NCBI RefSeq assembly: GCF_021107415.1
Contig: NZ_JAIOSW010000468.1
Span: 1-18,321 of the forward strand
Source of the DNA: Desulfobacula sp.
GTDB lineage: Bacteria; Desulfobacterota; Desulfobacteria; Desulfobacterales; Desulfobacteraceae
DNA: 18,321 nucleotides
Reading direction: 5' to 3'
Positions 1 through 16,751 of the stretch are shown here, one piece after another (the stretch's first letter is position 1; each line of letters opens with the position of its first letter). Both the position numbers and the translations under genes were made by a program. A model generated the notes under the pieces. The model was not told the origin of the DNA, did no database searches, and worked only from the letters and a program-made list of their open reading frames with translations.

Positions 1-742
1 AAAAAAGATCTGCATATACCTTTTCAAGTTTATCAAAATCATGTAATCGAAAAGCCACCTCAATCACTTCGGGTTTATCCATGCGCAGGAGTTCCTGTGC
101 ATCTTTTATATGCATATATCCCTCTTTACCCTGGGGACCTAGCATCGTCTCAATAATACCGGCAATTTTAAAGTTCAACCCATTCACACTGCCGTCCTTG
201 TTATTTGCAACCAGCACTATTGGGTCACCAATTTTGAGGTTCATCCCCTTGACCAGTTTTTCAGGAATAATCACCTCACCCGGATTCAACAATACCTCGA
301 GATCTCTTTTTTTATCAAATGTCATCCGGTTCCCCACATCAGGACAGACCAAGACCTCTTTTTCAGGGTTTATGGCATTCAATCGGATATTGGTGGTGTC
401 GGTAAAGTTGCTTAACATGGCATTAAGCTTGATCCTGGGTGCCCAAGCTAATACATCTTTATGACTTGAAAGTAATTCTTCAATTTTTTTATATCGCTTT
501 GTATCCAATGTCAAATCTAACGGCATGGTATCAATTGAGGAAACATAGCCTTTTTTATGAATCTGCATTTGTGCCAGGTTTGAATCCGTGATTTGTCCTA
601 TCATCATGGTTTTAAAAGAACCGACCAGGCCGGAAAAAAGAATCACAAGTACAATACCAAAGGTAATTAAAATGGAGGTTAACAGGGTTCTTCGTTTGTA
701 TCTTAAGAGATTACGAAGCGCAATTTTAAATATCCGGATCAT
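1..742 (-). CDS. ABC exporter permease, MacB/LolC-type (partial)
   Basis: The visible part is 247 codons from an ATG at 742, preceded by AAGGAG about 7 bases upstream; the C-terminus lies beyond the left edge. The N-terminus is a short basic segment followed by one membrane helix (about residues 18-40), then an extracytoplasmic domain with IQIHKKGY and SSIDTMPLD stretches near residues 57-75. This is the layout of the MacB periplasmic-core domain (MacB_PCD) in FtsX-type permeases, whose remaining three helices would be in the missing part. The gene starts 18 bp after the stop of the ATPase gene, so the two form one transcription unit. Family members export lipoproteins, peptides or small toxins; the substrate cannot be inferred here. 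The family call is fairly safe, the specific function is not. Confidence 0.85.
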   Translation of the reverse strand, partial: MIRIFKIALRNLLRYKRRTLLTSILITFGIVLVILFSGLVGSFKTMMIGQITDSNLAQMQIHKKGYVSSIDTMPLDLTLDTKRYKKIEELLSSHKDVLAWAPRIKLNAMLSNFTDTTNIRLNAINPEKEVLVCPDVGNRMTFDKKRDLEVLLNPGEVIIPEKLVKGMNLKIGDPIVLVANNKDGSVNGLNFKIAGIIETMLGPQGKEGYMHIKDAQELLRMDKPEVIEVAFRLHDFDKLEKVYADLF

Positions 743-760
743 TTTTTCTTCTCCTTTTGT

Positions 761-1432
761 CTATGTAAGTTTCCCGTCATCAAGTGTATATGATATTTCC
801 GCCTCTTCCATAATTCGAGGGTCATGGGTGGAAAATATAAAGGTGGTGCCGAATTTGTCTTTCATATCCCGCATCAGACGAATCACATTTAAGGAAGATT
901 TTTTGTCAAGGTTTGCAGTGGGCTCATCAGCCATAACCAGTTTTGGTTGAGTGACCAGGGCTCTTGCAACAGCAACCCTTTGTTTTTGCCCTCCTGATAA
1001 TTGATCTGGAAATTTATCTTTCTGGTCAAGCATACTGACGGAATCAAGGACATTAAGAATCATTTCTTTTCTTTTGTCTGCCGGTTCATTTTTGATCATA
1101 ACCAGTGGATATTCAATATTCTCGTAAGCAGTCAAAATAGGGAATAGATTGAAGGACTGAAAAATAAACCCGATTACATCTCCCCGGAAGGCGGCTCTTT
1201 TTTGACGGCTAAAACTATCAACCTGTTTGCCGTTAACAAGAATTTTTCCTTGAGTCGGTTTATCAAGACAGCCTATCAAATTTAACATGGTTGTTTTTCC
1301 ACTCCCTGAGGGGCCAACAAAGGAAACAAACGCTGATTTTTCTATGGACAGGTTAATATCACTTAAAGCTGCAATTTCAATATCACCTGTCTGGTATATT
1401 TTTGAAACATTTTCGATTTGAACTAGAGCCAT
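761..1432 (-). CDS. ABC exporter ATP-binding protein, LolD/MacB-type
   Basis: This 223-residue protein is a complete nucleotide-binding domain of the LolD/MacB/FtsE class, which powers FtsX-like permeases rather than classical transporters. It shows Walker A GPSGSGKT (40-47), Q-loop Gln92, signature LSGGQ (145-149), Walker B LVMADE (165-170) and switch His203. The usual PTANLD D-loop follows Walker B. The ATG at 1432 has an AAGGAG ribosome site 6-7 bases upstream. It is the first gene of a two-gene unit with the permease that starts 18 bp downstream. It would act on the cytoplasmic face of the inner membrane. Assignment to the class is secure, but Lol, Mac and other exporter subtypes cannot be told apart from this sequence. 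Confidence 0.93.
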   Translation of the reverse strand: MALVQIENVSKIYQTGDIEIAALSDINLSIEKSAFVSFVGPSGSGKTTMLNLIGCLDKPTQGKILVNGKQVDSFSRQKRAAFRGDVIGFIFQSFNLFPILTAYENIEYPLVMIKNEPADKRKEMILNVLDSVSMLDQKDKFPDQLSGGQKQRVAVARALVTQPKLVMADEPTANLDKKSSLNVIRLMRDMKDKFGTTFIFSTHDPRIMEEAEISYTLDDGKLT

Positions 1433-1516
1433 AACCGTCTCCTTTTAAATTTTCCTTTTATGTATTGTTTTGATTTATATTCAAAATTACAGCAATAAAT
1501 ATACCACTCCGGGTTA

Positions 1517-1534
1517 CAATATCATAAGATATTG
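1517..1534. repeat. 7-4-7 inverted repeat upstream of exporter operon
   Basis: CAATATC and GATATTG are perfect reverse complements separated by ATAA. The dyad lies 85-100 bases upstream of the exporter ATPase start. It could be an operator for that unit, but in such AT-rich DNA a chance dyad is possible. Confidence 0.3.
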
Positions 1535-1726
1535 AAATAAAGAATAATATTTATTTTATTATAACAAGTAAAGATTTAAATATATACGAACTGGATACTT
1601 TCTATACATGATTTTATATCCATCTGTATACAAACTACCCATTCACATATAACATTCTATAGCAAGAATATTGAAATTTCCATTCGTTTTCAGAATCAAG
1701 GGTGGGAGGAAGTTGCCGTCTTGTGA

Positions 1727-1768
1727 AAACCTGCTATACAAGCAAAATTCAGCTTGTATAGCAGGTTT
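1727..1768 (-). terminator. Perfect 17-bp hairpin after the cytochrome operon
   Basis: Arms 1727-1743 and 1752-1768 are perfect 17-bp reverse complements (minus-strand 5' arm AAACCTGCTATACAAGC) around an 8-base loop. The hairpin lies 26 bases after the cytochrome stop codon. On the minus strand the 3' arm runs into only four T residues, so it is either a terminator with a short U tract or a 3'-end mRNA stabiliser. On the plus strand the T tract is weaker, and no plus-strand gene ends here. Confidence 0.65.
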
Positions 1769-1793
1769 AAGGCAAAATAAATAAAGAATTTAT

Positions 1794-3815
1794 CTATTCA
1801 TGTTTTTCAAACCCCATGGGCAGTCTTGTAAAGCGGCCGCCATGGATAATGGGATCACCTTTATATCCCAGAGCTTTAAAATTAATATAATCAGTTTTAT
1901 CAATCAAATGTTCCACATCTCTTCCCTGGGATTTCATATAGGAAAAGTCTGTCCCTTTGTGGGCAATCTTTTTGAAATCAACTTCACGATTATCTCGATG
2001 GCACCGATTACATGTTTTATCCCCTTTAAGACTGTCATGACACTGAACACAGGACAATGACATCTCTTTCGGCATTACCTCGTGATCCAGGCGCCAGTAC
2101 ATCCAGGTTTCTTTCCATTTGTATGAACCGCTGTAGTCAAGTCCGACAGCATCCATACCGTCCTGGAACGCTTTTTCCCAATCAAAATTTTTCCAATACG
2201 CTGTCGTATCTTCCTTGTCGCGTGGCAACAGATGGGGAATAAGAAAATAATCATGATCCGCATCAACTGCCTGAATCGCCTTCATAATCTTAAAAGGTGT
2301 AATTTTAGAATTAGGATCATTCATGGAACCTACGGGTTCGGTCAGATTAATAATATCCTTATTGATATCAACCGTATCGCCAATGAAAATACGATTCATA
2401 TATCCTGAACTCCAGGCATAATCAGGTACGGCAGACTCTTCCCATTTAAATTCACCTTTTTTCTTATTATAATCAGGCTTTCCGTATTTATCTTTTTTCG
2501 GCTTGCGTTTTTTATCCCCTGCCTTGGACCAGTCCCACCAGGTCTTGGTGGGTTTACATTTTGCAAAAACCGGTGCATGGCAGACATTACAGTCAAGGGT
2601 TTTGGCATGCTTATTTAAATGGTGATCCAGAAGACTCCCGCAATAATGGGGTTCATCTGAATGACATTGCTGGCAGGTTACCTCGCCCTCGGCAACCGGT
2701 ACGGATGAACTTCGGCCGGCAATCTTGTGGTTTCTTGTTTTATGACACTCGGTACAGGAAAAATCATATCCCCCCATATGAATATCACAATTTCGGCTTG
2801 GTTTTAACAACTGTCTTGACATGTCCGCATGCTTAACTGCATCTCCTCCGCCACCATTAAAGTGGCAGGAACCGCAGCTGGCACGACTTGTATGACCGAC
2901 ATTCTGAGCAACAAATTTTAAATCAACATCTTTTTTGGGCATGCCGGCTCCCGGAGGATCTTTCTTATATTTTCCCGTGGTATCATGGCATATTAAACAA
3001 TCCATTTTTGTTTTATCTGTAAAATCAAAGGTATCATCTTTCCAACCATATCCTGCATGACAACTTGTGCAACGAGCCTCGTTGCTGATGGGACTAATTC
3101 AGTAGTTGTTCAGGGCCGTCGTGCCCTTGCCATGCATGACATCCTTTCGATGACCCGTTGTATAGGGAGAAGGGCCTTTCCATAACCAGTGAGCAGTTGT
3201 AAGCATATCTTCCGCCTGTGTATCATGACACCGCAAACATTCTTTGGTTACCTGGAACGGATCAGCATTGTCCGGCAGTTTTACCAGCTCTTTATGATCC
3301 GGCACATTCTGCAAATGGCAACCTTTGCAGTCAACCGGCCCTTTGGCCTGTTCCTGGTGGCATTCCATACATTGCTGATGGTAAGCCGCTTTAAGGCCGA
3401 TTCGCTCCGGATGATCCGGATTAAATGAATCCTGATGACAGGCTGAACACCGTGTTGTTTCAAGTTCACTCTCATCTTTTGGCCGGTAATGATGGCACTT
3501 GCTGCAGTCTTTGGTAAGAGCTGCATGCCGTTTGTGGGCAAACCGGACAGGTCCGTAATGATCCTCTCTTTTTTTGATGATGGGGCTGTCCAGCAGGAAA
3601 TGGACGTCTGTCACATCCTTTATGGAAATCCCTGCATCCATCAGACATATCTTTCGATTAATCTGGCAGTCGTCCTTGTATTCTTTGATGAACGGGACGA
3701 TCTCCTTTGCCCTTTCCTTTGCTTTTTCCTGATCCGGCGCTTGCCAGACCTCTGCCGTACAAAGAGCAGCCGTCAGGATCACCAGGCCTGCGAAGAAAAT
3801 AATTTTCTTTATCAC
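1794..3815 (-). CDS. Multiheme cytochrome c, OTR family; predicted selenoprotein (UGA at codon 239)
   Basis: I annotate one 673-residue periplasmic cytochrome read through an in-frame TGA (3099-3101), although it would normally be called as two genes (3815-3099 and 3005-1794). The start is GTG at 3815 with AAGGAGG 7 bases upstream; GTGA overlaps the stop of the preceding gene. Residues 1-21 form a signal peptide. An N-terminal domain has four CxxCH motifs (104, 123, 149, 163). The OTR-like domain then has nine (193, 249, 273, 314, 354, 381, 409, 589, 602), with the motif before the UGA and GYGWKD plus CLICHDTTG after it. The ATG at 3005 has no ribosome site or signal peptide, and its upstream codons still encode CTSCHAGYGW. 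Known relatives reduce tetrathionate, nitrite or hydroxylamine; the substrate here is unknown. The HybA/HybB-like neighbours suggest electron exchange with menaquinone. A genuine nonsense mutation is the alternative. Confidence 0.85.
3069..3101 (-). promoter_or_regulatory. Candidate bacterial SECIS element after the in-frame UGA
   Basis: The minus-strand mRNA reads UGA, 20 nucleotides, then a GGC triloop. The loop is closed by a perfect 7-bp stem, GCAACGA (3085-3079) with UCGUUGC (3075-3069). Bacterial SECIS elements are coding hairpins just downstream of UGA with a short loop that has a guanosine in its first two positions; spacing and loop both fit. I could not compute folding energies. SelB recognition is inferred. 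Confidence 0.7.
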
Positions 3816-5008
3816 GACGATACCTCCTTGGGTGCCTGCAGAACAGGCAGATAAGTCACAACGAATCTATAAACGAACATCAGGGCTGCAATGAGTCCTA
3901 AAGTGACCAAAATTTCTCCTATTGCTGGAAAATACCCAGTGTCAGCCAATGGCGGTTTATATCCTACGATGAATACATTGATTCTGTTAAGCACCACACC
4001 GAAGACAATCAAAGATGCGGCTGTAAAAACACCTCGCCTGGAATTTCTGACCTTTTCAAAGAGAAGCATAACCCATGGTACCATTACGCCGAAAATCATT
4101 TCTACAATAAAGGCATTGGTCTGATGGGTCCCGTCTAAAAGATAGACATAGGTTCCCCTGATAAACATATCACCCAGTTTGAGAAACATGTAGGCCCCCA
4201 AAAGGAAAATGGTAATCCGTGTTAACGGAGCCAGAATATTCATCTCTGAATCCAGCTTGAATGAAGAAGTAACAAGGGTGGTTTCAAAAACCACCATTGG
4301 ATACCCAACGGCAAAGGCTGATGTAAGAAACAACAAGGGCAAAATGGGTGTATACCACAGCGGGTGAAGTTTGGTAGGAGCAATCAGCATCAGCGTCCCC
4401 AAACTCGATTGATGCATGCAGGACAATACAATTCCTAGAATAATGAATATCCACATAATTTTATCCAATATTGCATCAGCCCGTTTTAAAATCATCTCAA
4501 TCAATCCGTTAAAAACAGATAAAGGACCCGGAAGATTCACCCTGTCTTTAAACTGCTCTGCAACTATGGGAATAAATTCAATATACAGCACATGCAGATA
4601 AACCATCACACACATGGCTACTTCAAAAAGAGCTGAATGCTGGTTCCAGTTAAACATGGGTTTCCATATAGCCCAGGAACGCCCGATATCCACCAGGAGA
4701 CCTAATACAACAAAAGTGTATCCCAAGGCAGCCGTTAAAAGTGCCGGCCGTGTAATGGGTTCATAATGATGCTTTCCCAAAAGGTGGGCCAGGGCAGCAG
4801 TTGTAAATCCACCCGCAGCAAGGGCAACACCGGTAGCCACATCCACACCCACCCAGAGCCCCCAGGGCCTGGCATTAGTAAGATTGGTAACATACCCGAT
4901 GCCGCCGGTAAATCTTGCAATAATGGAAATAGCGCCTGCTATCATGAAAACCAGCATAACAAGAACGCCGGGTGTCCAGAATTTTTTATTTAAAGGACTT
5001 GTTTCCAT
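3812..5008 (-). CDS. NrfD/HybB-type quinone-interacting membrane subunit
   Basis: This 398-residue protein is almost entirely hydrophobic, with about ten predicted membrane helices. It has the RPWGLWVGVDVATGVALAAG stretch (47-66) typical of the HybB branch of the NrfD/PsrC family. These proteins bind (mena)quinol in the inner membrane and exchange electrons with a peripheral iron-sulfur subunit. The ATG at 5008 overlaps the TGA of the ferredoxin gene by one base, with AAGGAGG six bases upstream. Its own stop overlaps the GTG of the cytochrome gene by four bases, so the three are translationally coupled. No hydrogenase gene is nearby, so the module appears to serve the multiheme cytochrome instead. 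Family assignment is strong; the direction of electron flow is not determined. Confidence 0.92.
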   Translation of the reverse strand: METSPLNKKFWTPGVLVMLVFMIAGAISIIARFTGGIGYVTNLTNARPWGLWVGVDVATGVALAAGGFTTAALAHLLGKHHYEPITRPALLTAALGYTFVVLGLLVDIGRSWAIWKPMFNWNQHSALFEVAMCVMVYLHVLYIEFIPIVAEQFKDRVNLPGPLSVFNGLIEMILKRADAILDKIMWIFIILGIVLSCMHQSSLGTLMLIAPTKLHPLWYTPILPLLFLTSAFAVGYPMVVFETTLVTSSFKLDSEMNILAPLTRITIFLLGAYMFLKLGDMFIRGTYVYLLDGTHQTNAFIVEMIFGVMVPWVMLLFEKVRNSRRGVFTAASLIVFGVVLNRINVFIVGYKPPLADTGYFPAIGEILVTLGLIAALMFVYRFVVTYLPVLQAPKEVSS

Positions 5009-5922
5009 CAGGCGCCTCCTTTATTTTGTGATTTTTCCTGAATTTTATTTGATTTGTACATGACAGCTCCCAAAACCCCAAAGAGTGCTATGGGGGACCA
5101 CAGAAAGGCGAACAGCGAGTGCTGTAAGGTTTCGGAAAGTTTGGGTATGGGTTTTTCCGGCAACAGAGGCAGGTTTACTTTTTCAAATGGTACAGAAGAA
5201 ATATAAAGCCATGATGTGCCACCGACTTCTTTTTCACCATATACATGATCGATATATACGCCTGGATTTTCTTTCAGCCTTTTTTTGGCAACCTTTAAGA
5301 GTGTATTTCTTTTTCCAAATGTCAGCGCTTCCGTTGGACAAATGGTTGCACAACCCGGAATACCACCGTCCTTAGATATCCTGTCATAGCAGAACGTGCA
5401 TTTCATTACCTTGGGTGTGATTGGGTTATGATATTCATAGGCGGGAATCTCAAAAGGACACGCCACCATACAATACCGGCATCCAATACATTTGTTAACA
5501 TTATATCTGACTGTTCCGGTCTCGTCTTTGGTCAATGCGCCATCAATGCAGGCTGACACACAGGCCGGGTCCTGACAATGCATGCACTGAACTTTGGCAT
5601 AGGTTGGTGACGGCTTGTCAAACTGATCCAGTTTACCGGTAAAATATCGGTTTACCACTGTAAAAGCCTTGTCATCAGGCCTTCTTTTTTTGTCAAATAT
5701 TGTACATTGACAATTAACCCGTTCCGGTGTGGGCAGGTCGTTCACCTTGGCACAGGCTTCTTCGCATTTACGACAGCCAACACACCGGGTCAAATCCACC
5801 AGGCATCCATAAGGATCAGGCGGCGCCTTTGACTCCCATGCACTGGCAGATGTGGGCAGTGCAGTAACAGATGCACCGGCTGCTCCCATGAATTTAAAAA
5901 AATTCCGTCTACTAAGTTGCAT
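5008..5922 (-). CDS. Tat-exported four-[4Fe-4S] ferredoxin subunit, HybA-like
   Basis: This 304-residue protein starts at ATG 5922 with AAAGGAGG four bases before it. A twin-arginine signal (SRRNFFKF, 4-11) precedes an AxA cleavage region near 26-28, so it is exported folded. Four cysteine groups follow: C47-C50-C53-C57, C113-C116-C121-C125, C145-C148-C151-C155 and C175-C178-C191-C195, as in DsrO/HybA/HmcB-type electron carriers. A C-terminal helix (about 268-288) would anchor it on the periplasmic side of the membrane, a HybA feature. It probably wires the HybB-like quinone subunit to the multiheme cytochrome. It begins 35 bp after the TusA-like gene and overlaps the membrane subunit gene by one base. 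The role is confident at family level. Confidence 0.94.
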
Positions 5923-5957
5923 TTTCCCTCCTTTTTATATTCAACATCTAATTATAT

Positions 5958-6194
5958 TTAAAATTTTTTACCTCTTTTTATTCCAAGACAGATATAATCC
6001 TTATTTTTATTTTTGTAGACTACTTCATCACGGGATCGGTTAACGATCATTATCAGATCCTGTATCACATCAATATCTGCCAGCATAACCTCCAGAACAT
6101 CCCCTTGTTCCATGGATTTAAGACGGCTTTTGCATTTGAGCAGATTAAGAGGTGAAATGACTCCTCTAAGATCCAATACAATTTTTGATGCCAT
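5958..6194 (-). CDS. TusA/SirA-like small protein lacking the CPxP cysteine
   Basis: This 78-residue protein has the TusA-family start (LDLRGVISPLNLLKCKSRL, 7-25) followed by a beta strand and a DIDVIQDL region, matching the two-layer TusA fold in length and order. TusA proteins carry sulfur as a persulfide on the cysteine of a CPxP motif. Here that position reads SPLN, so the usual sulfur-accepting cysteine is absent and the only cysteine is Cys20. The ATG at 6194 has GGAG eight bases upstream. It is the first gene of the operon with the ferredoxin, membrane subunit and cytochrome, directly after the sigma-54 type promoter. It may be a regulatory or structural derivative rather than a sulfurtransferase. 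Family recognition is good; function is uncertain. Confidence 0.75.
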   Translation of the reverse strand: MASKIVLDLRGVISPLNLLKCKSRLKSMEQGDVLEVMLADIDVIQDLIMIVNRSRDEVVYKNKNKDYICLGIKRGKKF

Positions 6195-6239
6195 ACTTAA
6201 TCTCCAATTATTAATATAAAATTATAATATAATGATATT

Positions 6240-6255
6240 TGCAACAGGCATACCG
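6240..6255 (-). promoter_or_regulatory. Sigma-54 (-24/-12) promoter for the TusA-like/cytochrome operon
   Basis: The minus strand reads CGGTATGCCTGTTGCA. The invariant GG of the -24 element and GC of the -12 element are exactly ten bases apart, and TTGCA matches the -12 consensus fully. Transcription would begin about 35 bases before the ATG at 6194. A sigma-54 activator gene lies divergently next to it. The -24 box deviates from TGGCAC at two positions. Confidence 0.7.
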
Positions 6256-6352
6256 TTGAAGGCATGAAAAATGATGTTTTGTATAAGTTATTGTTTTTAT
6301 AGAAAATAATTAGTTTTAAACTTTGGGTTGATTATTTATAGATTAAATAGTA

Positions 6353-6399
6353 TTTAAACAACTGTTAAAATGCTATTACTATTTTAACAGTTGTTTAAA
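6353..6399. promoter_or_regulatory. 19-bp perfect palindrome, candidate activator binding site
   Basis: Arms 6353-6371 (TTTAAACAACTGTTAAAAT) and 6381-6399 are perfect reverse complements around nine bases. The site lies about 100-160 bp upstream of the -24/-12 promoter, the usual place for a sigma-54 enhancer. It also overlaps the likely start region of the activator gene (possible promoter TTGATT 6328-6333, TATTTA 6351-6356). It could therefore serve both operon activation and autoregulation. Confidence 0.6.
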
Positions 6400-6429
6400 C
6401 GATTAAACAGGCATTTGAGAGGAAAACAC

Positions 6430-7818
6430 ATGGATGACCATGAAATGAATATTTTCTGGAAAAAAATAGTGAATACCATTAACGATGGATTAATGTTAAT
6501 CGGTCCTGAGGGTTCTATTCTAATGGTCAACAAAGCCTTTGAAACACTTATAGGATATACCTCAAAAGAAGCCATTGGCATGTCCTGTGAAATGTTAGGC
6601 TGTGATGCCTGTGAAAAGATCATGCAGACGGATAAAGAAACTGCATGGTGCAAATTATTTGAAGGCCGGCAGGATATGAAAAAATGCCGCTGTCTCGTCA
6701 AATGCAAGGACGGCAGTTTTTTACCGGTTTTAAAAAATGCATCCATACTATATGATGAAGACCAGACAGCACTTGGCGTTGTGGAAACTTTAACCGATAT
6801 CTCCGAGCTTACCAAACTGGATGAAAAAGTTCATATCCTTTCCAGACAATGTGACCAGAAAAATGACTTTTTGGGCCTGGTGGGCAAATCATCTGAAATG
6901 CAGATTGTATTTGACATGGTAAGAAAAGCTGCTCAAAGCAATGCGCCTGTTATTATTCTGGGTGAAAGCGGAACCGGGAAAGAACTGGTAGCCAATGCCA
7001 TCCACTTATGCGGTTCCAGAAAAAATGGTCCTTTTATTCAACTCAATTGTGCTGCATTAAATGAAGCAGTCCTGGAAAGTGAATTGTTCGGACATACAAA
7101 GGGTGCATTCACAGGTGCATACGGCAATCGTATTGGCCGATTTGAAGCCGCCAACCATGGCGATTTCTTTCTGGATGAAATCGGTGATATCCCATTGTCT
7201 ATTCAGACCAAACTTTTAAGAGTCCTTGAGTCGGGCTGTTTTGAAAGAGTAGGCGATATTTCATCCATCAAAACCGATGTACGAATTATTACTGCCACAA
7301 ACAAAGATCTTGATGAATTAATAGAAAAAAAAGAGTTCAGACAGGATCTTTTTTTTAGAATTAATGTCATACCGATCCATCTACCGCCTTTAAGAGATAT
7401 AAAGGAAGATATCCCTTTATTAATCAATTCTTTTATCTATCGGTTAAACATGACAACCGGTAAAACAATTAATGGGTTGAGTCATGATGCCATGGAATTA
7501 TTTATGGATTACCTTTGGCCTGGAAATATCCGGGAGCTTAAAAATGCAATGGAGTATGCTTTTGTCACCACTGAAGGGTCCACTATTCATTTAGAGCATT
7601 TGCCCAAAAAGATTAGTACGGCAATACCCCCCTCCCCGGTTCTTCAATTAACTGAAGATAAAATTCTGCCCAATGAAAAATTACTATTAATCCAAGCACT
7701 TAAACAGACAAACGGAAACCAGACAAAGGCGGCAAAAATTCTTAATATCAACAGGGTAACCGTATGGAACCGCATGAGAAAGTACGGCATTGATCTTAAA
7801 AAGGTCTTGTCCGTCTAA
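6430..7818 (+). CDS. PAS-AAA+-Fis sigma-54-dependent transcriptional activator
   Basis: This 462-residue enhancer-binding protein has three parts. An N-terminal PAS domain (about 10-130) contains seven cysteines (53, 58, 61, 74, 86, 88, 92). An AAA+ domain (about 150-390) has Walker A GESGTGKE (178-185), the sigma-54 contact loop GAFTGA (225-230) and Walker B FFLDE (246-250). A C-terminal Fis-type helix-turn-helix follows (about 416-455). I chose the ATG at 6430 because GAGAGG lies seven bases upstream; the frame stays open to a TTG at 6391, but that lies inside the palindrome and has no ribosome site. There is no response-regulator receiver domain, so the signal is probably sensed by the PAS domain. 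It is divergent from the cytochrome operon and most likely activates it. Confidence 0.92.
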
Positions 7819-8042
7819 AAAGGAATAATTGTGGAATTAGAGCGAGGGAATAAAATTATTGCACGAATATCTCCGGTTGCCTCTGATTCACCAAAGACAA
7901 AGGTATGAATCAAAGAGTCATTACTTTTATATGCCTTTTTTTCAGCCGGTATTAAAAACAGTCCACCGCCAACAGCAAGATGTGCGACATAAATATGAAT
8001 AACAGCAATGGATGCAATTAAGAATCCTTCTTCCCTAGGCAA
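7815..8042 (-). pseudogene. Remnant of a multi-helix membrane protein gene
   Basis: A 75-codon frame encodes one convincing membrane helix (IASIAVIHIYVAHLAVGGGL) followed by FLIPAEKKAY. From memory this resembles the N-terminus of large membrane proteins annotated as cytochrome bd-I-like subunit I in deltaproteobacteria. The frame then jumps to SLIHTFVFG, which resembles a later part of the same family, and ends in unrelated-looking sequence. It has no ATG (TTG at 8042) and no ribosome site, and it overlaps the end of the activator gene by four bases. I read it as a gene reduced by an internal deletion, not a functional small protein. The family identification is tentative. Confidence 0.4.
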
Positions 8043-8057
8043 TATCTTTAATTTATA

Positions 8058-8086
8058 TTGACAACCAGACCAGACCAGACTAAACT
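8058..8086 (+). promoter_or_regulatory. Sigma-70 promoter of the toxin-antitoxin pair with CCAGA repeats
   Basis: TTGACA (8058-8063) is followed after 17 bases by TAAACT (8081-8086, four of six matches). The spacer contains three tandem CCAGA copies (8065-8079), which may be the operator bound by the antitoxin. Confidence 0.6.
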
Positions 8087-8122
8087 AAGTAACAGTAAAT
8101 CGTTGCTAAAAAGGAGTTTATC

Positions 8123-8383
8123 ATGCAAATTACTAATATTTCAGAAGCAAAGGCAAGTTTGTCTTATTTGATAAAAACAATTCAGGAAACTGGAGAATCA
8201 ATTGTTATAGGCAAAGCAGGGAAACCTGTTGCTATTCTCTCGGCTTTCAAAAAAAATAATTTACCCCGCAAGCTTGGTGGAAGCTGGGAAGGTAAGGTGA
8301 AAATTGCTCAGGATTTTGATGAAATTGATGAAAAGATCATTGATCAATTTTATAATTCATCTATTTTTCCTCCACAAACATGA
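8123..8383 (+). CDS. Phd/YefM-family antitoxin
   Basis: This 86-residue protein has the Phd/YefM N-terminal DNA-binding fold: MQITNISEAKASLSYLI, then GESIVIGKAGKPVAILSAF (about 28-46). A C-terminal tail follows that would wrap the partner toxin. The ATG at 8123 has AAGGAG eight bases upstream. Its TGA overlaps the toxin ATG as ATGA, the usual coupling of such pairs. It should neutralise the PIN-domain toxin encoded downstream and repress the promoter at 8058-8086. The antitoxin family is recognised from the N-terminal motif and the pairing; the specificity of the pair is unknown. Confidence 0.9.
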   Translation: MQITNISEAKASLSYLIKTIQETGESIVIGKAGKPVAILSAFKKNNLPRKLGGSWEGKVKIAQDFDEIDEKIIDQFYNSSIFPPQT

Positions 8384-8757
8384 ATATTCTTCTTGATACA
8401 CATGTTTTAATATGGGCGCTGGAAAATAACCCTGCACTTTCCAAGATTGCTGCAACCAGTATTATTGATCCAGAGAACATGGTTTTTGTAAGTGCTGCTT
8501 CTGTCTGGGAAATTGGCATTAAAAAAAATCTTGGCAAGCTTGAAACACCAGATAACCTGATTGAAGAAATCAAGCTGCATCGTTTTACTCCTCTTTCCAT
8601 CAACTTTGATCATGCACAACTTGCAGGAACATTACCAAATATTCACAAAGACCCCTTTGACAGGATATTGATTGCCCAGGCAATCACTGAAAAATTAATT
8701 TTAGTAACTCGGGATGAGTTAATGGCCAGGTACAAGGTACAGACACTCAAGGCATGA
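8380..8757 (+). CDS. PIN-domain (VapC-like) ribonuclease toxin
   Basis: This 125-residue protein is a complete PIN domain with the acidic metal-binding residues expected for catalysis: Asp6 (LLDTH), Glu44 (VWEIGIK), Asp94 (HKDPFDR) and Asp112 (VTRDE). The HKDPFDR and LLDTHVLIW motifs mark the subgroup that commonly pairs with Phd-type antitoxins. Such toxins cleave RNA, often tRNA or rRNA, and arrest growth when unopposed; the target here is unknown. The gene starts in the ATGA overlap with the antitoxin. It converges on the aap operon with only 25 bp between stops. All catalytic residues are present, so it is presumably active. Confidence 0.92.
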   Translation: MNILLDTHVLIWALENNPALSKIAATSIIDPENMVFVSAASVWEIGIKKNLGKLETPDNLIEEIKLHRFTPLSINFDHAQLAGTLPNIHKDPFDRILIAQAITEKLILVTRDELMARYKVQTLKA

Positions 8758-8782
8758 TTAACTTTCTTAGAAGAAAGATGAT

Positions 8783-9526
8783 TTAAATAATCTGGCTTAA
8801 GAATTGTTGAGTTCTGTCATATTTCGGGCTTATGAAAAATTTATCAGGGTGATTTTCTTCAACAATTTCACCCTGATCCATGAATAGTATTCTATTGGCA
8901 ACCTGTTTTGCAAATCCCATTTCATGGGTTACCACACACATGGTCATTCCATCATGGGCAAGTTGTTTAATAACATCAAGAACCTCTTTTACCATTTCCG
9001 GGTCCAGGGCAGATGTAGGCTCATCAAACAGCATAATTTTGGGGTTCATGCACAAGGCTCTTGCGATTGCCACACGTTGCTGCTGACCACCAGAAAGCTG
9101 ACCCGGCATTTTAAAAGCCTGGTCGGTAATTTGTACTCGCTTAAGAAGTGTCATGGCAAGTTCTTCTGCCTTTTTTTGAGGCATTTTAAGAATCCAGGCA
9201 GGAGCCAGTGTGAGGTTTTCAAGAACCGTCAGATGGGGAAAAAGATCGAAAGTCTGAAACACCATACCCACTTCTCTACGGACATCTGCAATATTTTTCA
9301 TTTTACCTGTCAGCTCTGTTCCCGCAACAATTATTTTCCCTTTTTGATGCTCTTCAATTCTGTTTATACAACGGATAAGCGTTGATTTTCCAGATCCTGA
9401 GGGGCCACATATGACAATGATTTCACCTTTATGTATAGTCATATTTATATTTTTAAGAACATGAAAATTACCAAACCATTTGTTTAAATTTGTAATTTCA
9501 ATAATAGGGTTATTCAGTTGATTCAT
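8783..9526 (-). CDS. aapP: General L-amino acid ABC transporter ATP-binding protein
   Basis: This 247-residue ATPase belongs to the GlnQ/AapP group of polar amino acid importers. It has Walker [10 protein letters not shown] (41-49), Q-loop Gln91, LSGGQQQR (144-151), Walker B IMLFDE (164-169) and His201 in VVTHEMGF. The ATG at 9526 has GGAG about eight bases upstream. It is the last gene of a four-gene operon in the order binding protein, two large permeases, ATPase, which is the characteristic aapJQMP arrangement; the start is 16 bp after the permease stop. It powers uptake of a broad range of L-amino acids in the founding rhizobial system, but the substrate range here is unknown. The symbol rests on operon order. 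Confidence 0.92.
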
Positions 9527-9542
9527 TTAATTTCTCCAATTA

Positions 9543-10652
9543 TTACCATTGATTGTGATGCTCAATGGATTTGCCATACTGGCTCATGGAAAAACAGATA
9601 ATCCAGTATATCAGCGCACAAAAAACATAGGCTTCTGCATCATATCCAAGCCAATCAGGGTCTTGCGCAGAGGCTTTGATCATCCCTAAAAAATCAAGCA
9701 GTCCGACTATGATCACAAGGGATGTATCTTTAAAGAGTGCAACACAGCGACCGATAAGAGATGGGATAACATGGCGCAGAGCCTGGGGCAGAACAATAAA
9801 ACAGGTGATGGTCCAGTTTTTGAGCCCAAGAGAACTGGCAGCTTCGATCTGCCCTTGAGAAATGGCCTGGAGTCCTCCCCTTACCACTTCCGCAATATAG
9901 GCGGAGGAAAATAGTATGATACCGATCTGCACCCGTAAAAGGTTATTGATGCTCATTCCCTGGGGCAGAAAAATAGGCAACATAACAGAGGCCATAAATA
10001 GAATGGTGATTAGGGGAACGCCTCGTATGGATTCAATAATACCGATACAAAGTGATTTTACGACGACCATGCTTGATCGCCTACCCAGAGCCAGCAATAT
10101 GCCAAGAGGTATGGACATAATAATACCAATGGCAGCAAGTCCTGTGCTCAACATCAGACCGCCCCATAAGGATTGTTCTACAGTTTCAATACCCATTCCG
10201 CCATTGATCAGAAAAAATAACGGCAGGGGTAGAAAAAACCAGAGTGTAATCAAAAGTTTGGTCTGAAGCACTCTAAGGGCGGTTAATACACATACACCGC
10301 CAAAAATTACAAAGGTCAGAATCGGGCGCCACAATAATTCTTGAGGATATAGTCCAACCATCAGCACCCTGAATTTTACAAAAATAAATGTCCAGCAGGC
10401 ACCTGTTTTTTCTGTGGGGCATGGATGTGAAGAAAAACTCCAGGTGGCATCGATAATTGTCCAGGAAAGCAACGGTGGAAGAGTTTTCCATAAAAAGAAA
10501 AGCGCAGCAAACGTGAGCAAAGAATTAATTTTACTGCTAAAAAGATTACCTTTAAGCCAGCCGATGATACCAACGGATTCCAAAGGTGCAGGAAGGTCAG
10601 GCATGGGTTTAAAAACCTGTATTTCTATGCCGGCATCAGATAAAGTTGTCAC
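9543..10652 (-). CDS. aapM: General L-amino acid ABC transporter permease (AapM)
   Basis: This 369-residue permease is longer than ordinary HisM-type proteins. It has a hydrophobic N-terminal extension (about 1-150) before the conserved permease core, as in AapM. The core carries an EAA-type loop, GQIEAASSLGLKNW followed by FIVLPQALRHVIP (about 270-296), which contacts the ATPase. The start is GTG at 10652, with AGG in the overlapping end of the upstream permease gene, whose stop is three bases away; the two are surely co-translated. The N-terminal extension contains two cysteines close together (near residues 78 and 85). It sits in the inner membrane as partner of the other permease. Family and operon role are confident. 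Confidence 0.9.
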   Translation of the reverse strand: MTTLSDAGIEIQVFKPMPDLPAPLESVGIIGWLKGNLFSSKINSLLTFAALFFLWKTLPPLLSWTIIDATWSFSSHPCPTEKTGACWTFIFVKFRVLMVGLYPQELLWRPILTFVIFGGVCVLTALRVLQTKLLITLWFFLPLPLFFLINGGMGIETVEQSLWGGLMLSTGLAAIGIIMSIPLGILLALGRRSSMVVVKSLCIGIIESIRGVPLITILFMASVMLPIFLPQGMSINNLLRVQIGIILFSSAYIAEVVRGGLQAISQGQIEAASSLGLKNWTITCFIVLPQALRHVIPSLIGRCVALFKDTSLVIIVGLLDFLGMIKASAQDPDWLGYDAEAYVFCALIYWIICFSMSQYGKSIEHHNQW

Positions 10653-10655
10653 GGT

Positions 10656-11816
10656 TTACCTGCCAATATGCTGAACTTTTGCATTCAGCCAGTTCATGAT
10701 CATTGATACCATCAGGTTGATGGTCATATAAACCCCCATCCACATGGCAATAATTTCTATTGCCTGGTCATTTTGGCCAATAATGGTACCTCCGATAGAG
10801 ACCATATCAGGGTAACCAATGGCAACAGCCAGAGAGCTGTTTTTAACCAGGCTTGTGTAATCATTGGTAGTAGCAGGAATAATCACCCGCAGCGCCTGGG
10901 GCAGAATGACCTTTCTCATGGTGAGGCCTGTGGTCAATCCAAGGGCCTTGGATGAATTAATCTGACCCATGTCCACAGACTGAATGCCACTTCTGACATT
11001 TTCACCGATAAAAGCGGCTGTATATAATACCAATCCTATCATCAGAGCTGAAAATTCAGGACGAATGACTAAACCGCCTTGAAAATTAAACCCTTTTAGT
11101 ACAGCAAATTCCCATGCGATAGGGCCACGGGTCAGCCACCATGCAATAGCAGGAATTGCGACCATTGCGATCAACCCCAAAGTAAATGAGGGAATAGTCC
11201 GCCCGGTTTCCCGGTGAAGTCGTTTTGCAAACCAATGAATCATAAATGCGGCAATAATGCCTATCAGAACGGCCAGGCAAACAATCAAAAAGCCTGATTC
11301 AGGTATGGGTCTAGGGAGGTAAATCCCCCTGTTGTTCAAAAAAAAACCTTCAAAGGGCATCAGGCTCTTTTTAGGAATCGGCAATGCGGCAAGGGCAATG
11401 GTATAGGTGAAAAACAGGGTAAGAAGTAAAGGAATATTTCTTAATACTTCAACATATATTTCTGCAAGTTTTGATATGAGCCAGTTATTGGAAACCCTGG
11501 CAACACCAATTAAAATTCCTATCAATGTGGCAAGTATTATACCAAAAAAAGCAACATAAAGGGTATTGATAATGCCGATAAAAAAAGCAAAGCCGTAAGA
11601 ATCTGCTGGAGAGTATGGCAACAGAGAATTACTGATGGGCATCCCGGATTCTAAAGATAAAAAACCAAAACCCGAAGCAATGTTGCGGGCTTCAAGATTT
11701 GCCTGTGTATTGACCAGGAGCCCGTGTGCAGCATAAAGAATTATGCCGATGACAGCTGCTTGAAGCATCAAGGTTGTAACAAAGGGTTTTGAGAATGAAA
11801 ATACCGATGGTTTCAA
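10656..11816 (-). CDS. aapQ: General L-amino acid ABC transporter permease (AapQ)
   Basis: This 386-residue permease has about eight hydrophobic segments and the enlarged middle region typical of AapQ (helix pair near 180-230). The ATPase-contact loop reads GQINSSKALGLTTG then KVILPQALRVIIP, so the EAA residues are NSS here while the glycine and the LPQALR portion are kept. The start is TTG at 11816, with AAGG about eight bases upstream; no ATG lies close by. It follows the binding-protein gene after 66 bp that contain a GC-rich hairpin, and ends three bases before aapM. It forms the translocation pore with AapM. Confidence 0.9.
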   Translation of the reverse strand: MKPSVFSFSKPFVTTLMLQAAVIGIILYAAHGLLVNTQANLEARNIASGFGFLSLESGMPISNSLLPYSPADSYGFAFFIGIINTLYVAFFGIILATLIGILIGVARVSNNWLISKLAEIYVEVLRNIPLLLTLFFTYTIALAALPIPKKSLMPFEGFFLNNRGIYLPRPIPESGFLIVCLAVLIGIIAAFMIHWFAKRLHRETGRTIPSFTLGLIAMVAIPAIAWWLTRGPIAWEFAVLKGFNFQGGLVIRPEFSALMIGLVLYTAAFIGENVRSGIQSVDMGQINSSKALGLTTGLTMRKVILPQALRVIIPATTNDYTSLVKNSSLAVAIGYPDMVSIGGTIIGQNDQAIEIIAMWMGVYMTINLMVSMIMNWLNAKVQHIGR

Positions 11817-11838
11817 AAGATATGCCTTGCTTAAAATC

Positions 11839-11860
11839 AGGGGGGCATATTCGCCCCCCT
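11839..11860 (-). promoter_or_regulatory. GC-rich hairpin between binding-protein and permease genes
   Basis: AGGGGGGC (11839-11846) and GCCCCCCT (11853-11860) form a perfect 8-bp stem with a six-base loop, in the 66-bp gap after the aapJ stop. On the minus strand it is followed by GATTTTAAG, a weak U run. It probably protects the aapJ message or causes partial termination, giving more binding protein than permease. Confidence 0.6.
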
Positions 11861-11882
11861 ATAATGTGTTAAATGAAAAAAA

Positions 11883-12896
11883 TTATCGGATAGGCAATGC
11901 GTATTGAAGTCCGCCCTGGGTCCATAATTTATTGACACCCCGTGGAATGTTCAGCTTTGTTGAAGGTCCGAAATGGCGATCATATATTTCACCATAGTTG
12001 CCGACTGCCTGAATTGCCCGAACCAGCCAGTCTTTATCAAGTCCAAGATAGCTGCCGGTATCGCCGGATTTGCCAAGCATACGCTGAATAACGGGATAAT
12101 TAGATTTTTCTTTCATTTCCAGAACGTTGGCTGCAGTAATACCATATTCTTCAGCTGCGATGAGCCCATTAATGACCCAGGTAACAATATCTTTCCACTG
12201 GTTGTCTCCATGTCGGACCAGAGGAGCCAGGGGTTCCTTTGAAATGACTTCCGGCATGATATTGTGATCCTGCGGCTTGGCAAGGGTGGTTCTCAAAGAA
12301 GCCAGCTGGCTTACATCAGTGGTAAAACAGTCGCATCGGCCTGTGGCATAGGCATTGAGAGCCTCTTTTTTACCGTCAAAAACAAGGACTTCTATTTTAA
12401 GGCCGTGAAGCCTTGCAAAATCAGCAAGATTCAGTTCAGATGTGGTACCGGCTGTTACACATACGGTAGCACCATCAATTTTTGTTGCCGAGTCCACACC
12501 CAGGGCTTTGGAAATCATGAATCCCTGACCGTCATAAAAAACAATTTTAGTGAAGTCAACACCTTGCTTTGCATCTCTTTTCAAAGTCCAGGTGGTTGTT
12601 CTGGAAGTCAGGTCTACCTGACCGGAAGATACGGCAATAATTTTTTGTTTGGATGCCAGAGAAACAAATTTAATTTTTTGCGGATCTGACAAAACGGCTG
12701 CTGCTACGGCTCTTGCCATATCAACATCAAACCCTTTCCATTGTCCTGTGGAATCGGGAATTGAAAATCCCGGGACACCTTCACTGATACCACACGTCAA
12801 AACTCCTTTTTTCTGAATATCTTGAAGTGTACCGGACCAGACCGTAGAAACCATCATGATAAGTGATAGAGCAATAATAACCATTAATTTTTTCAA
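11883..12896 (-). CDS. aapJ: General L-amino acid ABC transporter periplasmic binding protein
   Basis: This 337-residue solute-binding protein has a signal peptide (about 1-21, ending VWSG) and a mature domain starting TLQDIQKKGVLTCG. The region TVCVTAGTTSELNLADFARLHGL (about 145-167) is characteristic of AapJ and related general L-amino acid binding proteins, which are longer than HisJ types. I chose TTG at 12896 because AGGAGGG lies seven bases before it; the in-frame ATG at 12884 would be 19 bases away and lose the basic start of the signal peptide. It is the first gene of the aapJQMP operon and captures amino acids in the periplasm. Exact ligands cannot be read from the sequence. Confidence 0.92.
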   Translation of the reverse strand: MKKLMVIIALSLIMMVSTVWSGTLQDIQKKGVLTCGISEGVPGFSIPDSTGQWKGFDVDMARAVAAAVLSDPQKIKFVSLASKQKIIAVSSGQVDLTSRTTTWTLKRDAKQGVDFTKIVFYDGQGFMISKALGVDSATKIDGATVCVTAGTTSELNLADFARLHGLKIEVLVFDGKKEALNAYATGRCDCFTTDVSQLASLRTTLAKPQDHNIMPEVISKEPLAPLVRHGDNQWKDIVTWVINGLIAAEEYGITAANVLEMKEKSNYPVIQRMLGKSGDTGSYLGLDKDWLVRAIQAVGNYGEIYDRHFGPSTKLNIPRGVNKLWTQGGLQYALPIR

Positions 12897-13020
12897 AGTA
12901 TTTCCCTCCTCTTTTTAGTTAATAAACAAACCAGTAAATTCAACTTACATTATACTATGAAAGTTTGATTAAACCCTATTTTTTTTTGTTTATCAAATTA
13001 ATAATAAAACTTAGAGCTTC

Positions 13021-13054
13021 TATTTAGGATAAGAACTTTCTTCTTGTCAAGAAG
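13021..13054 (-). promoter_or_regulatory. Possible aapJ promoter with overlapping dyad
   Basis: On the minus strand TTGACA (13050-13045) is followed after 18 bases by TAAATA (13026-13021), a weak -10. A perfect 7-1-7 dyad, CTTCTTG/CAAGAAG (13040-13054), covers the -35 box and could be an operator. A consensus TATAAT also occurs closer to the gene (12954-12949) but without a clear -35, so the true start is uncertain. Confidence 0.4.
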
Positions 13055-13132
13055 TATAGGAAAAATATAAGAAAACCATTATTTTTTATATACTGATAAA
13101 CTGGTGTTTTAAAAAAAATAGATTAAAAATAC

Positions 13133-13169
13133 TTGACAAAAAAAGAATAATCAACTTATGTGTACATTA
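13133..13169 (+). promoter_or_regulatory. GntR-gene promoter with ATGTRTACATTA operator
   Basis: TTGACA (13133-13138) and TATGTG (13157-13162) form a sigma-70 promoter with 18-base spacing. The near-palindrome ATGTGTACATTA (13158-13169) covers the -10 box and likely start point. An almost identical site lies before the next operon at 13891, so this is probably where the regulator represses itself. Confidence 0.6.
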
Positions 13170-13190
13170 ACGTTTTTTATGAGAGGCTCA

Positions 13191-13844
13191 ATGTCAAAAG
13201 AAAATCTAGAAGAATTTGCATATACCTCAATCATTCGATTAATTCTGGAAAATCATTTCAAGATAGGGGATTTCCTGCTTGAGACAGAGCTTTCCAAGGC
13301 CCTGGATCTGAGCCGGACCCCTGTCCGACACGCCTTGGGACAACTGGTGGCTGAAGGTTTTCTGGATAAAAAGAAAAAAAAAGGCTGCTTTATTCCACCT
13401 GTCAGCTCTGAAGACGCACGCCATGTTTTTTTTGTAAGGAAAAATATAGAAGGTTTGACTGCTAGTTCTGCGGCCAGGCATGCCACGGATGAGGATATTG
13501 ATTTTTTATGGGGCCTGATTAAAGAGGAAAAAGAGCTGTACCAGAATTTTTCCAAGATGGATTATGTTAATATTAATATGGCATTTCATATGGGCATTGC
13601 CAGGATCAGTCAGAACAAATACCTGGAGAAGTATTGCCGACACAGCTTTTGCCGTTCTCATACCTATATATTTTTTTATGATGATTATTATACCGGTGCC
13701 CTTGTATCCGGGATTCAGGAAACGAGTCCCAAACAACATATCCAGATTGTAGAGGCCATTGAAAACCGAAATGAGGAAAAAGCTGGAAACTTGATGAGAC
13801 AGCATGTCCGGACAACATTTGAGCAGCTTTTTGTAAAACTGTAG
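13191..13844 (+). CDS. GntR-family regulator, FadR/FCD subfamily
   Basis: This 217-residue protein has an N-terminal winged helix-turn-helix (LLETELSKALDLSRTPVRHALGQLVAEG, about 29-56) and an all-helical FCD ligand domain (about 75-215). Candidate metal-binding histidines are His133 (NMAFHMGIA), His183 and His205. I start it at ATG 13191, preceded by GAGAGG at 13181-13186. In-frame ATGs at 13158 and 13179 also exist, but 13158 lies within the -10 and operator. FCD regulators usually bind small carboxylic or amino acids and repress adjacent catabolic genes. It lies 103 bp before the saccharopine-dehydrogenase/transporter operon and shares an operator with it, so that operon is its likely target. 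The ligand is unknown. Confidence 0.9.
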   Translation: MSKENLEEFAYTSIIRLILENHFKIGDFLLETELSKALDLSRTPVRHALGQLVAEGFLDKKKKKGCFIPPVSSEDARHVFFVRKNIEGLTASSAARHATDEDIDFLWGLIKEEKELYQNFSKMDYVNINMAFHMGIARISQNKYLEKYCRHSFCRSHTYIFFYDDYYTGALVSGIQETSPKQHIQIVEAIENRNEEKAGNLMRQHVRTTFEQLFVKL

Positions 13845-13889
13845 AACATGGAGAAAGCAAAGCAGCAGCAGGGTAAAGTGTAATTACCA

Positions 13890-13923
13890 AATGTATACAT
13901 TAGAAAGATTTAGCCTGTAATAT
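13890..13923 (+). promoter_or_regulatory. GntR operator and likely operon promoter
   Basis: AATGTATACATT (13890-13901) is a perfect 12-bp palindrome. With the following A it matches the site at 13157-13169 at 11 of 13 positions. A possible -10, TAATAT (13918-13923), follows, so the operator would cover a poor -35 region. Repression of the downstream operon by the GntR protein is inferred. Confidence 0.6.
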
Positions 13924-13947
13924 AAAAAAAAATAAAAAGAGGAAACC

Positions 13948-15123: not shown

Positions 15124-15198
15124 GAAGAGGATCAACAACAGGAATCTGCGGTTTTTACCGTTGAACGAATAATACTAACCCGAAAAAAGGAGAAAAAC

Positions 15199-16002
15199 AT
15201 GAGTCAAAAAAAATTAGTTTCAATTGTCCTCGCCGTTGTGGTGACACTGTTCTTAACCGGTATAAGTTTTGCCGGGACTTTGAGCGAAATTGTTAAACGG
15301 GGAGAACTCCGCGTGGCAGTGCAGTCCGGAGCAGCACCCTATGCCTTTATTGACAAACACGGGGAACATACGGGCTCCATGGTTGAGTTTGCCAAGGGAA
15401 TGGCTGACAGCATGGGTGTCAAGATTAAAATTCTTGATTTTGACTGGGATGGTCTGATTCCTGCTCTTTTATCCGGAAAAGCCGACATTCTGGCCGCTGA
15501 TATGACCCCCACCCTGAAACGAGCCCTTAAAATTTCTTTTGCAGATCCCTGGATTTATGTTCAGCCCTGTATTTTTACTAAAACCGGTGCCAGCTATCAG
15601 ACCCTTGAAGATGTGGATAAACCCAGTGTAACAGTCGGGGTTCTTTTGGGCTCCACCGGTGAAACCATTGCCAAACAATACCTGCCCAATGCCAAGATCA
15701 AATCCTATAAAGGCGGCGGCAGGATGGTTGTTCAGGCCCTGATTGCCGGCCATGTGGACGCCGGTGTCAATGATGACCTGGCGGTTCTCACTGTGCTTCC
15801 GGATTTCCCCCCCAACTCCATCCGGCTGCTGGACAAACGCCTGGGACAGGGTATGGATCCCCTTGCCTTTGCAATCCGCCATGACTCTGTAAACCTGTGG
15901 CAGTGGATCAATCTTTATTTTAAAACTATCCGGTCCAATGGCACCTATGATAAAAATATTGCCTATTGGATGGAAGGCATAGAGTGGAAAAAAGATCATT
16001 AG
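15199..16002 (+). CDS. Polar amino acid ABC transporter substrate-binding protein
   Basis: This 267-residue protein has a signal peptide (about 1-25, ending SFAG) and the SBP_bac_3 fold: GELRVAVQSGAAPYAFID near 35-52, DWDGLIPALLSGKADIL, then a second lobe with VTVGVLLGSTGETIA. The length is normal for the HisJ/GlnH family. The ATG at 15199 has AAGGAG about six bases upstream. It follows the saccharopine-dehydrogenase-like gene by 75 bp and precedes two permeases and an ATPase. DMTPTLKRALKISFADPW is the usual ligand-site region, although the common arginine-loop sequence (TxTxxR) reads TPTLKR. It delivers an amino acid or similar compound to the permeases. The ligand is probably the substrate of the flanking dehydrogenases. 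Confidence 0.92.
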   Translation: MSQKKLVSIVLAVVVTLFLTGISFAGTLSEIVKRGELRVAVQSGAAPYAFIDKHGEHTGSMVEFAKGMADSMGVKIKILDFDWDGLIPALLSGKADILAADMTPTLKRALKISFADPWIYVQPCIFTKTGASYQTLEDVDKPSVTVGVLLGSTGETIAKQYLPNAKIKSYKGGGRMVVQALIAGHVDAGVNDDLAVLTVLPDFPPNSIRLLDKRLGQGMDPLAFAIRHDSVNLWQWINLYFKTIRSNGTYDKNIAYWMEGIEWKKDH

Positions 16003-16024
16003 AAAGTAAATAGAATCAAATAAT

Positions 16025-16060
16025 GGTGTGCGCCCTCTATTTTTCCTTTGGGCGCACACC
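16025..16060 (+). promoter_or_regulatory. Hairpin between binding-protein and permease genes
   Basis: GGTGTGCGCCC (16025-16035) and GGGCGCACACC (16050-16060) form a perfect 11-bp GC-rich stem with a 14-base loop. It starts 23 bases after the binding-protein stop. No T run follows, so it is more likely an mRNA stabiliser or partial attenuator than a full terminator. Confidence 0.65.
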
Positions 16061-16750: not shown

Positions 16751-16751
16751 T

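Follow-up and report, generated by a model that had tools for sequence, protein, structure and literature searches.

An in-frame TGA, probably read as selenocysteine, in an octaheme-family cytochrome gene of Desulfobacula sp.

The stretch of Desulfobacula sp. DNA analyzed here (contig NZ_JAIOSW010000468.1 of assembly GCF_021107415.1, positions 1 to 18,321; the whole 18,321-nucleotide stretch is hereafter termed the window) contains a gene for a multiheme cytochrome of the octaheme tetrathionate reductase (OTR) family that is interrupted by a single in-frame TGA. Is this gene broken, or is the TGA read as an amino acid, and which one? A first-pass annotation of the window had proposed selenocysteine (Sec). 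The present analysis indicates, at a probability of roughly 0.94, that the apparently broken gene is an intact selenoprotein gene in which UGA 239 is read as selenocysteine, because the TGA stands at a cysteine column of the family, a hairpin follows it in all 88 TGA-containing genes, the hairpin codons are invariant, the Sec machinery is present in relatives, and the ratio of nonsynonymous to synonymous change is low on both sides of the TGA.

The reading frame and the column of residue 239

The cytochrome frame lies on the minus strand and runs for 673 codons from a GTG (3815-3813) to a stop codon (1796-1794). Its sole internal in-frame stop is the TGA at 3101-3099 (residue 239), in agreement with the continuous frame first described, and mechanical open reading frame calls split it into products of 238 and 403 amino acids, the two truncated genes expected from standard gene callers. 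The GTG overlaps the stop codon of the adjacent NrfD gene and is preceded by a Shine-Dalgarno-like sequence (Table 1), whereas no Shine-Dalgarno-like bases were read ahead of the internal ATG (3005-3003), as would be expected if the second frame has no ribosome site of its own. Comparison of the window gene with nine relatives of equal length gave a nonsynonymous divergence (dN) of 0.042-0.100 and a synonymous divergence (dS) of 0.58-1.40, with similar values on either side of the TGA; the same purifying selection acts on the frame after the TGA as before it.

The readthrough product matches TIGR04315 (tetrathionate reductase family octaheme cytochrome) with 492.2 bits, above the curated cut-off of 375, which bears out the proposed family assignment, and it matches the solved structure 1SP3 (the octaheme cytochrome of Shewanella oneidensis) with 399 bits. 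Five of its 13 CxxCH motifs precede the TGA and eight follow it; eight lie in the OTR domain (residues 183-595; motifs at 193, 249, 273, 314, 354, 381, 409, and 589), a ninth at 602 lies just past that domain, and residues 84-167 match class III cytochrome c. The 1SP3 protein shares the OTR-domain heme motifs and the Lys and Asp of a GGGGDAVKH motif with the window protein, but it has Cys in place of the putative Sec and lacks the c3-type domain. Residue 239 aligns with the Cys of NNFC in 1SP3 (Cys64 by counting along the printed chain), and the GGGGDAVKH motif gives Asp150 and Lys153, which are equivalent to D325 and K328 of the window protein. The lysine is presumably a heme ligand, and Cys64 may lie near the active-site heme. 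A predicted structure of the product (mean predicted local distance difference test score, 72.5) has 1SP3 as its nearest fold, but residues 249-252 and 320-337 score below 50, and the model is too poor at the active site for any measurement.

The residue-239 column was compared in 240 homologues, consisting of the best 120 matches in each of two protein-database listings. Among these matches, the column holds Cys in 120/120 standalone homologues and in 104 of 114 fusion-type homologues (Leu in 8, Thr in 1, and Ala in 1), K328 is kept in 238/240 and D325 in 232/240; such database matches favor Cys forms, since the TGA truncates the recorded Sec forms. The Cys is thus near-invariant rather than invariant: the invariant Cys that the first-pass annotation suggested looking for agrees with the 1SP3 alignment and the standalone proteins but not with part of the fusion type. 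Six of the 240 homologues (400-405 amino acids) begin after the column, at or near the internal Met that opens the 403-amino-acid frame of the window, which suggests that the same split occurs elsewhere. The fusion proteins with neither Cys nor Sec at the column (L068, L076, P0101, P0102, P0106, P0109, P0110, P0112, P0113, P0119, P0120, and P0121) are perhaps non-catalytic or act on an altered substrate. Two further records are either fusions or assembly errors: P0114 (1043 amino acids) joins NrfD and the cytochrome, and P0117 has a membrane-protein-like start running into the cytochrome.

Occurrence of the TGA and the downstream hairpins

One scan of an 84,980-species collection kept 79 loci that are 42-90% identical to the window gene in their best segment. 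In the first set, made up of these loci and the window gene (80 genes), the script-read column was TGA in 57, Cys in 18, Leu in 1, Thr in 1, and unreadable in 3, one of which (L074) shows the TGA and a hairpin in other readings. When 395 genomes of the phylum were searched for the family, 78 matches lay above the cut-off, of which 31 contain exactly one TGA and 47 contain no stop, as counted by hand from the table and including the center genome (G031), whose TGA was known beforehand; an earlier draw of 198 genomes, mostly the same as the 395, gave 15 TGA-containing genes among 36 matches. After loci were added, 114 of 116 sequences were readable (76 TGA, 36 Cys, 1 Leu, and 1 Thr), and 12 further TGA-containing matches fetched from the 395-genome search all have the TGA at the residue-239 column, giving a total of 126 readable sequences out of 128 (88 TGA, 36 Cys, 1 Leu, and 1 Thr). 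The TGA gene is present in the cultured relatives Desulfosarcina widdelii, Desulfosarcina alkanivorans, Desulfocicer vacuolatum, and Desulfamplus magnetovallimortis. Below the family cut-off, one match with one TGA (G203) and one with one TAG (G093) were seen. Two copies from metagenome-assembled genomes (L066 and L074) look frameshifted, and the eight TGAs in L066 were rejected as recoding sites, since all but that at column 239 are aligned with unrelated residues (E, P, I, V, A, L, and H). The viral contigs searched contained no relative.

The selenocysteine insertion sequence (SECIS)-like hairpin that had been reported after the TGA was found again. The window hairpin, GCAACG-AGGCU-CGUUGC (type A), begins 13 nt past the TGA (3085-3069), and it is one of two types that follow the TGA in 88/88 genes: 61 carry exact type A, 22 carry exact type B, and 5 carry variants of type B. 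The presence of one of the two types in every TGA gene, together with the purifying selection downstream of the TGA, makes the observation more than chance. Standalone OTR genes mostly carry type B (CTGGTGC-AGGT-GCACCAG, 24 nt from the UGA to the loop); as a consequence of the two hairpins, the protein reads SNWCRC with type B and SNEARC with type A. Exact type B was found in 15 of the 76 TGA genes and in 7 of the 12 fetched later. The five variants, all among these 12, keep the pairing: L125 and L126 have a G-U pair in the stem, L132 and L133 have the loop AGTT, and L134 combines this loop with a compensatory change of the outer pair from C-G to T-A. Exact type A and type B forms, the only forms sought there, are absent from the 36 Cys genes, and the type A 17-mer occurs at one place in each of eight Sec genomes and nowhere in two Cys genomes among ten whole genomes searched. 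Genome G183 contains three OTR copies (C10, C93, and C36): a type A TGA gene (L085), the type B variant L134, and a third gene without a stop.

In the first set, the type A hairpin has the form GCAACG-AGGCU-CGUUGC in 52 genes and the loop AGUCU in 5, so that the second loop position is G and the next is G or U; the 18 Cys genes of this set contain neither form. Bacterial SECIS elements are described, in the accessible part of a 2026 review, as having a stem of 4-16 bp, a loop of 3-9 nt with a G in its first two bases, a distance of 16-37 nt from the UGA, and a minimum free energy of -7.5 or lower (PMC13188914); type A falls within these limits, with a 6-bp stem, the loop AGGCU, 19 nt from the UGA to the loop, and -7.5 kcal/mol for the hairpin alone. 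The codons at +5 to +10 read AGC AAC GAG GCT CGT TGC in 57/57 TGA genes of the first set (with TCT for GCT in five). In the same genes, the background sharing of a codon for a shared residue is 0.481 (standard deviation 0.143 over 231 columns, of which 0.4% reach at least 0.95), against which the six hairpin codons are synonymously invariant.

These observations bear on the explanation that the gene is a pseudogene, a sequencing error or a gene with a true stop, which would leave a five-heme fragment and a second frame that is unused or re-initiated. The two mechanically called frames and the six database proteins that begin at or near the same internal Met would fit this explanation, but the same TGA in 88 genes, the purifying selection downstream of it together with the invariant hairpin codons, and the internal ATG without Shine-Dalgarno-like bases make it very improbable; a pseudogene, a sequencing error and a code change were all rejected on conservation.

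Selenocysteine machinery and exchange with cysteine

Searches for SelB and tRNA-Sec covered the genomes of 50 of the 79 loci, many of which are incomplete metagenome-assembled genomes. SelB was above its cut-off in 44/50 and tRNA-Sec in 43/50 (marginally, at 47.3 bits, in the genome of L073), and relatives with a TGA-containing OTR gene, matched by hand, have SelB and/or tRNA-Sec in 35/35 cases and both in 27/35. In 14 named control genomes, SelB was above cut-off in 2 and tRNA-Sec in 5; the latter is therefore less specific than SelB. SelA and SelD were above cut-off in 6/6 relatives' genomes searched. The above-cut-off selD matches of G001, G003, G016, G023, G024, and G027 each contain one internal TGA, as in Sec-containing SelD.

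Suppression or an altered genetic code could also place Trp, Arg or Cys at the UGA, as sequence by itself does not name the inserted residue. This explanation is considered highly unlikely: the hairpin is of the kind that Sec requires, relatives have the Sec machinery, the alternative at the column is Cys, and the frame of the window gene contains no other stop. Sec remains the preferred reading: UGA 239 would be decoded by SelB and tRNA-Sec under the direction of the hairpin that starts 13 nt downstream.

The distribution of the trait was followed on two trees, whose counts of changes do not separate gain from loss. A tree of the OTR domain (110 rows with the trait columns masked, built without the 12 later-fetched genes by a quick method that carries a long-branch warning) places type B in one group with a support of 80 and requires seven changes for type A, six of them forced by well-supported branches; three type A rows sit among standalone proteins. 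On a tree of 88 longer proteins, which omits L070, L074, L075, L078, and L079 and includes 13 hand-picked Cys proteins, Sec and Cys swap ten times, nine of them forced. Exchange of Sec and Cys at this column thus appears to be repeated. The Cys rows of Desulfospira (L012) and Desulfobacter (L020) are nested among Sec rows, which suggests loss of Sec, and the genomes of both have SelB and tRNA-Sec above cut-off.

Operon, possible chemistry and known relatives

The cytochrome gene ends an operon that also encodes a TusA-like protein, an iron-sulfur (FeS) protein and an NrfD-type membrane subunit (Table 1). At TGA loci with at least 2.2 kb of upstream DNA, FeS and NrfD genes are both in place in 45/46, the remaining locus (L042) having neither; at Cys loci, the ferredoxin is present in 18/18 and NrfD within the distance limit in 14/18, with the other four just beyond it. 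A TusA-like relative (E up to 1e-3) occurs at 3/18 Cys loci with enough DNA; below 1e-10, one is found at 16/44 TGA loci, and one Cys-locus match lies further off. The divergent sigma-54 activator and a GG-N10-GC site at 6255-6240, which is also the best site, with 1-3 differing bases, in L001, L003, L007, L009, L010, and L011 (a comparison made without a shuffled control), suggest sigma-54 control of the operon; a scan with the strict sigma-54 consensus gave no excess over shuffled sequences.

Table 1. Coordinates of the cytochrome gene, its recoding elements and adjacent features in the window
Feature	Position	Strand	Basis
Putative Sec-OTR gene, 673 codons through the TGA	1797..3815	-	Signal-peptide-like start (by eye), class III cytochrome domain 84-167, OTR domain 183-595, 13 CxxCH
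In-frame TGA, probably read as selenocysteine, residue 239	3099..3101	-	Frame, alignment, column across genes
Putative SECIS hairpin, type A, 6-bp stem, loop AGGCU, loop 19 nt past the TGA	3069..3085	-	Invariant codons in 57/57 genes; 61/88 TGA genes
Shine-Dalgarno-like AAGGAGGT ahead of GTG 3815	3822..3829	-	Read from sequence
17-bp perfect inverted repeat directly 3′ of the cytochrome gene, possible terminator	1727..1768	-	Read from sequence; unlisted by a scan
NrfD-type membrane subunit (PF03916)	3812..5008	-	Profile matches; present in 45/46 TGA loci
HmcB-like FeS protein (ferredoxin), twin-arginine translocation (Tat)-type start	5008..5922	-	Profile matches; Tat match below its Pfam cut-off
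TusA-like protein, 78 amino acids, without Cys in its ISPL motif	5958..6194	-	PF01206, 43.8 bits (cut-off 28.6)
Candidate sigma-54 promoter CGGTATGCCTGTTGCA	6240..6255	-	By eye; the best site of six close relatives is similar
Divergent PAS/sigma-54 activator/Fis regulator, candidate operon regulator	6391..7818	+	Profile matches, neighborhood survey

The product would be a periplasmic cytochrome in which a class III (c3-type) heme domain is fused to an octaheme OTR domain, and it would work with the HmcB-like FeS protein and the NrfD-type quinone subunit, electrons passing from the quinone pool through NrfD, the FeS protein and the c3 domain to the active-site heme of the OTR domain. In tetrathionate or a comparable compound, the selenol of Sec239 may attack a sulfane sulfur or an S-S bond, and the resulting Se-S adduct would be released on reduction; a mechanism of this kind has been proposed for the active-site Cys of TsdA. 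According to that proposal, this Cys of TsdA, a thiosulfate dehydrogenase/tetrathionate reductase, attacks tetrathionate at its central S-S bond, so that the enzyme offers a model of a nucleophilic thiol beside a heme, but it is diheme, is described as distinct from OTR, and uses the Cys as a heme ligand (PMC5146829, accessible part). The TusA-like gene in the operon and the tetrathionate activity of OTR proteins supply the link to sulfur. We infer incorporation in this organism, the substrate, the direction of the reaction and the role as nucleophile, and the sulfur-nucleophile mechanism, which draws on analogy, is offered tentatively. Alternatively, the selenoprotein could have a nitrogen oxide, namely nitrite or hydroxylamine, or some other acceptor as its substrate, with Sec tuning the redox potential or guarding against sulfide or oxygen. 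Enzymes of the OTR type act in vitro on nitrite and hydroxylamine and also reduce tetrathionate (PMC6449678, accessible part), nearly all of the homologues listed retain the 1SP3-motif Lys and Asp, and some members have neither Cys nor Sec at the column, but the TusA-like gene points to sulfur; this alternative is plausible, if somewhat doubtful.

Several observations weigh against the reading of the gene as a selenoprotein gene acting on sulfur. The window segment folded alone is not more stable than shuffled sequences (z = 0.36; 115/200 as good), and in an Rfam search neither SECIS nor any other family reaches its threshold; it is conservation, and not folding energy, that carries the case for recoding. 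Leu, Thr or Ala stands at the column in some of the fusion-type proteins, so that Cys or Sec is not essential to all. Members of the TusA family carry Cys in a CPxP motif, in place of which the TusA-like protein reads ISPL, and a TusA-like relative (E up to 1e-3) is found at only 21/44 TGA loci with enough DNA.

The window operon resembles two known systems. Its FeS protein best matches HmcB among FeS models, its NrfD protein matches HmcC second among NrfD models, and its cytochrome has an HmcA-like c3 segment; membership of the Hmc complex was rejected because the matches fall below the equivalog cut-offs (HmcA, 65.4 of 400 bits; HmcB, 339.4 of 420; HmcC, 281.6 of 550); the head of the cytochrome is OTR. 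The Ohc complex of Desulfovibrio vulgaris, according to the accessible part of its description, likewise comprises an octaheme cytochrome, an FeS protein, a membrane subunit and a divergent sigma-54 activator (PMC4641369), but the ohcBAC order and the heme b protein OhcC there, compared by description and not by sequence, differ from the FeS-NrfD-cytochrome order here, and membership was rejected. Elsewhere in the window, a Phd/YefM antitoxin gene and a PIN-domain gene form a VapBC-like toxin-antitoxin module (8123-8757, plus strand), and two clusters resembling amino-acid ATP-binding cassette transporters (8783-12896, minus strand, and 15199-18158, plus strand; named mostly by eye) adjoin a GntR/FCD regulator and a saccharopine-dehydrogenase-like gene.

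The first-pass annotation knew of no description of such a Sec form, a claim that does not hold. The accessible part of the 2026 review tabulates a TIGR04315 selenoprotein as "GenBank annotated", with no function given there (WP_331457571.1; PMC13188914), which belongs to the same family as the window protein and has one Sec, and a Sec-containing c-type cytochrome was predicted in Geobacter in 2007 (GSU2937 and GSU2936), with five CXXCH motifs and a C-terminal part without known relatives, unlike the window gene (PMC1914089, accessible part). Like the window gene, the Geobacter pair is a multiheme cytochrome split by an in-frame TGA. We take GSU2937 and GSU2936 to be the ExtKL of the 2026 review. 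Within the accessible literature, outside which most subscription journals lie, Sec and such a cytochrome are tied together only in these two papers, and neither the two hairpin types nor the Sec/Cys exchange nor this gene's operon was found mentioned. Novelty is therefore limited, and what is added here is the frequency of the Sec form (31 of the 78 sampled matches to the family), its two hairpin types, the repeated Sec/Cys exchange and the operon.

It is tentatively proposed that these genes represent a selenium-heme reductase class that is common in Desulfobacterota, in which the same OTR residue became Sec-encoded under two unrelated hairpins (A and B) and reverted to Cys on several occasions in hosts that have retained the Sec machinery, so that selenium may tune heme-based sulfane-sulfur reduction in sulfate reducers. 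The sampled OTR genes that carry the TGA would be split by standard gene callers, and a family linked to the cycling of sulfur and nitrogen would consequently be under-counted and its members misread as fragments. If residue 239 sits at the active-site heme, the family would supply natural pairs of Sec and Cys forms of one heme enzyme with which the contribution of selenium could be tested, and would show SECIS hairpins arising and vanishing inside a coding sequence.
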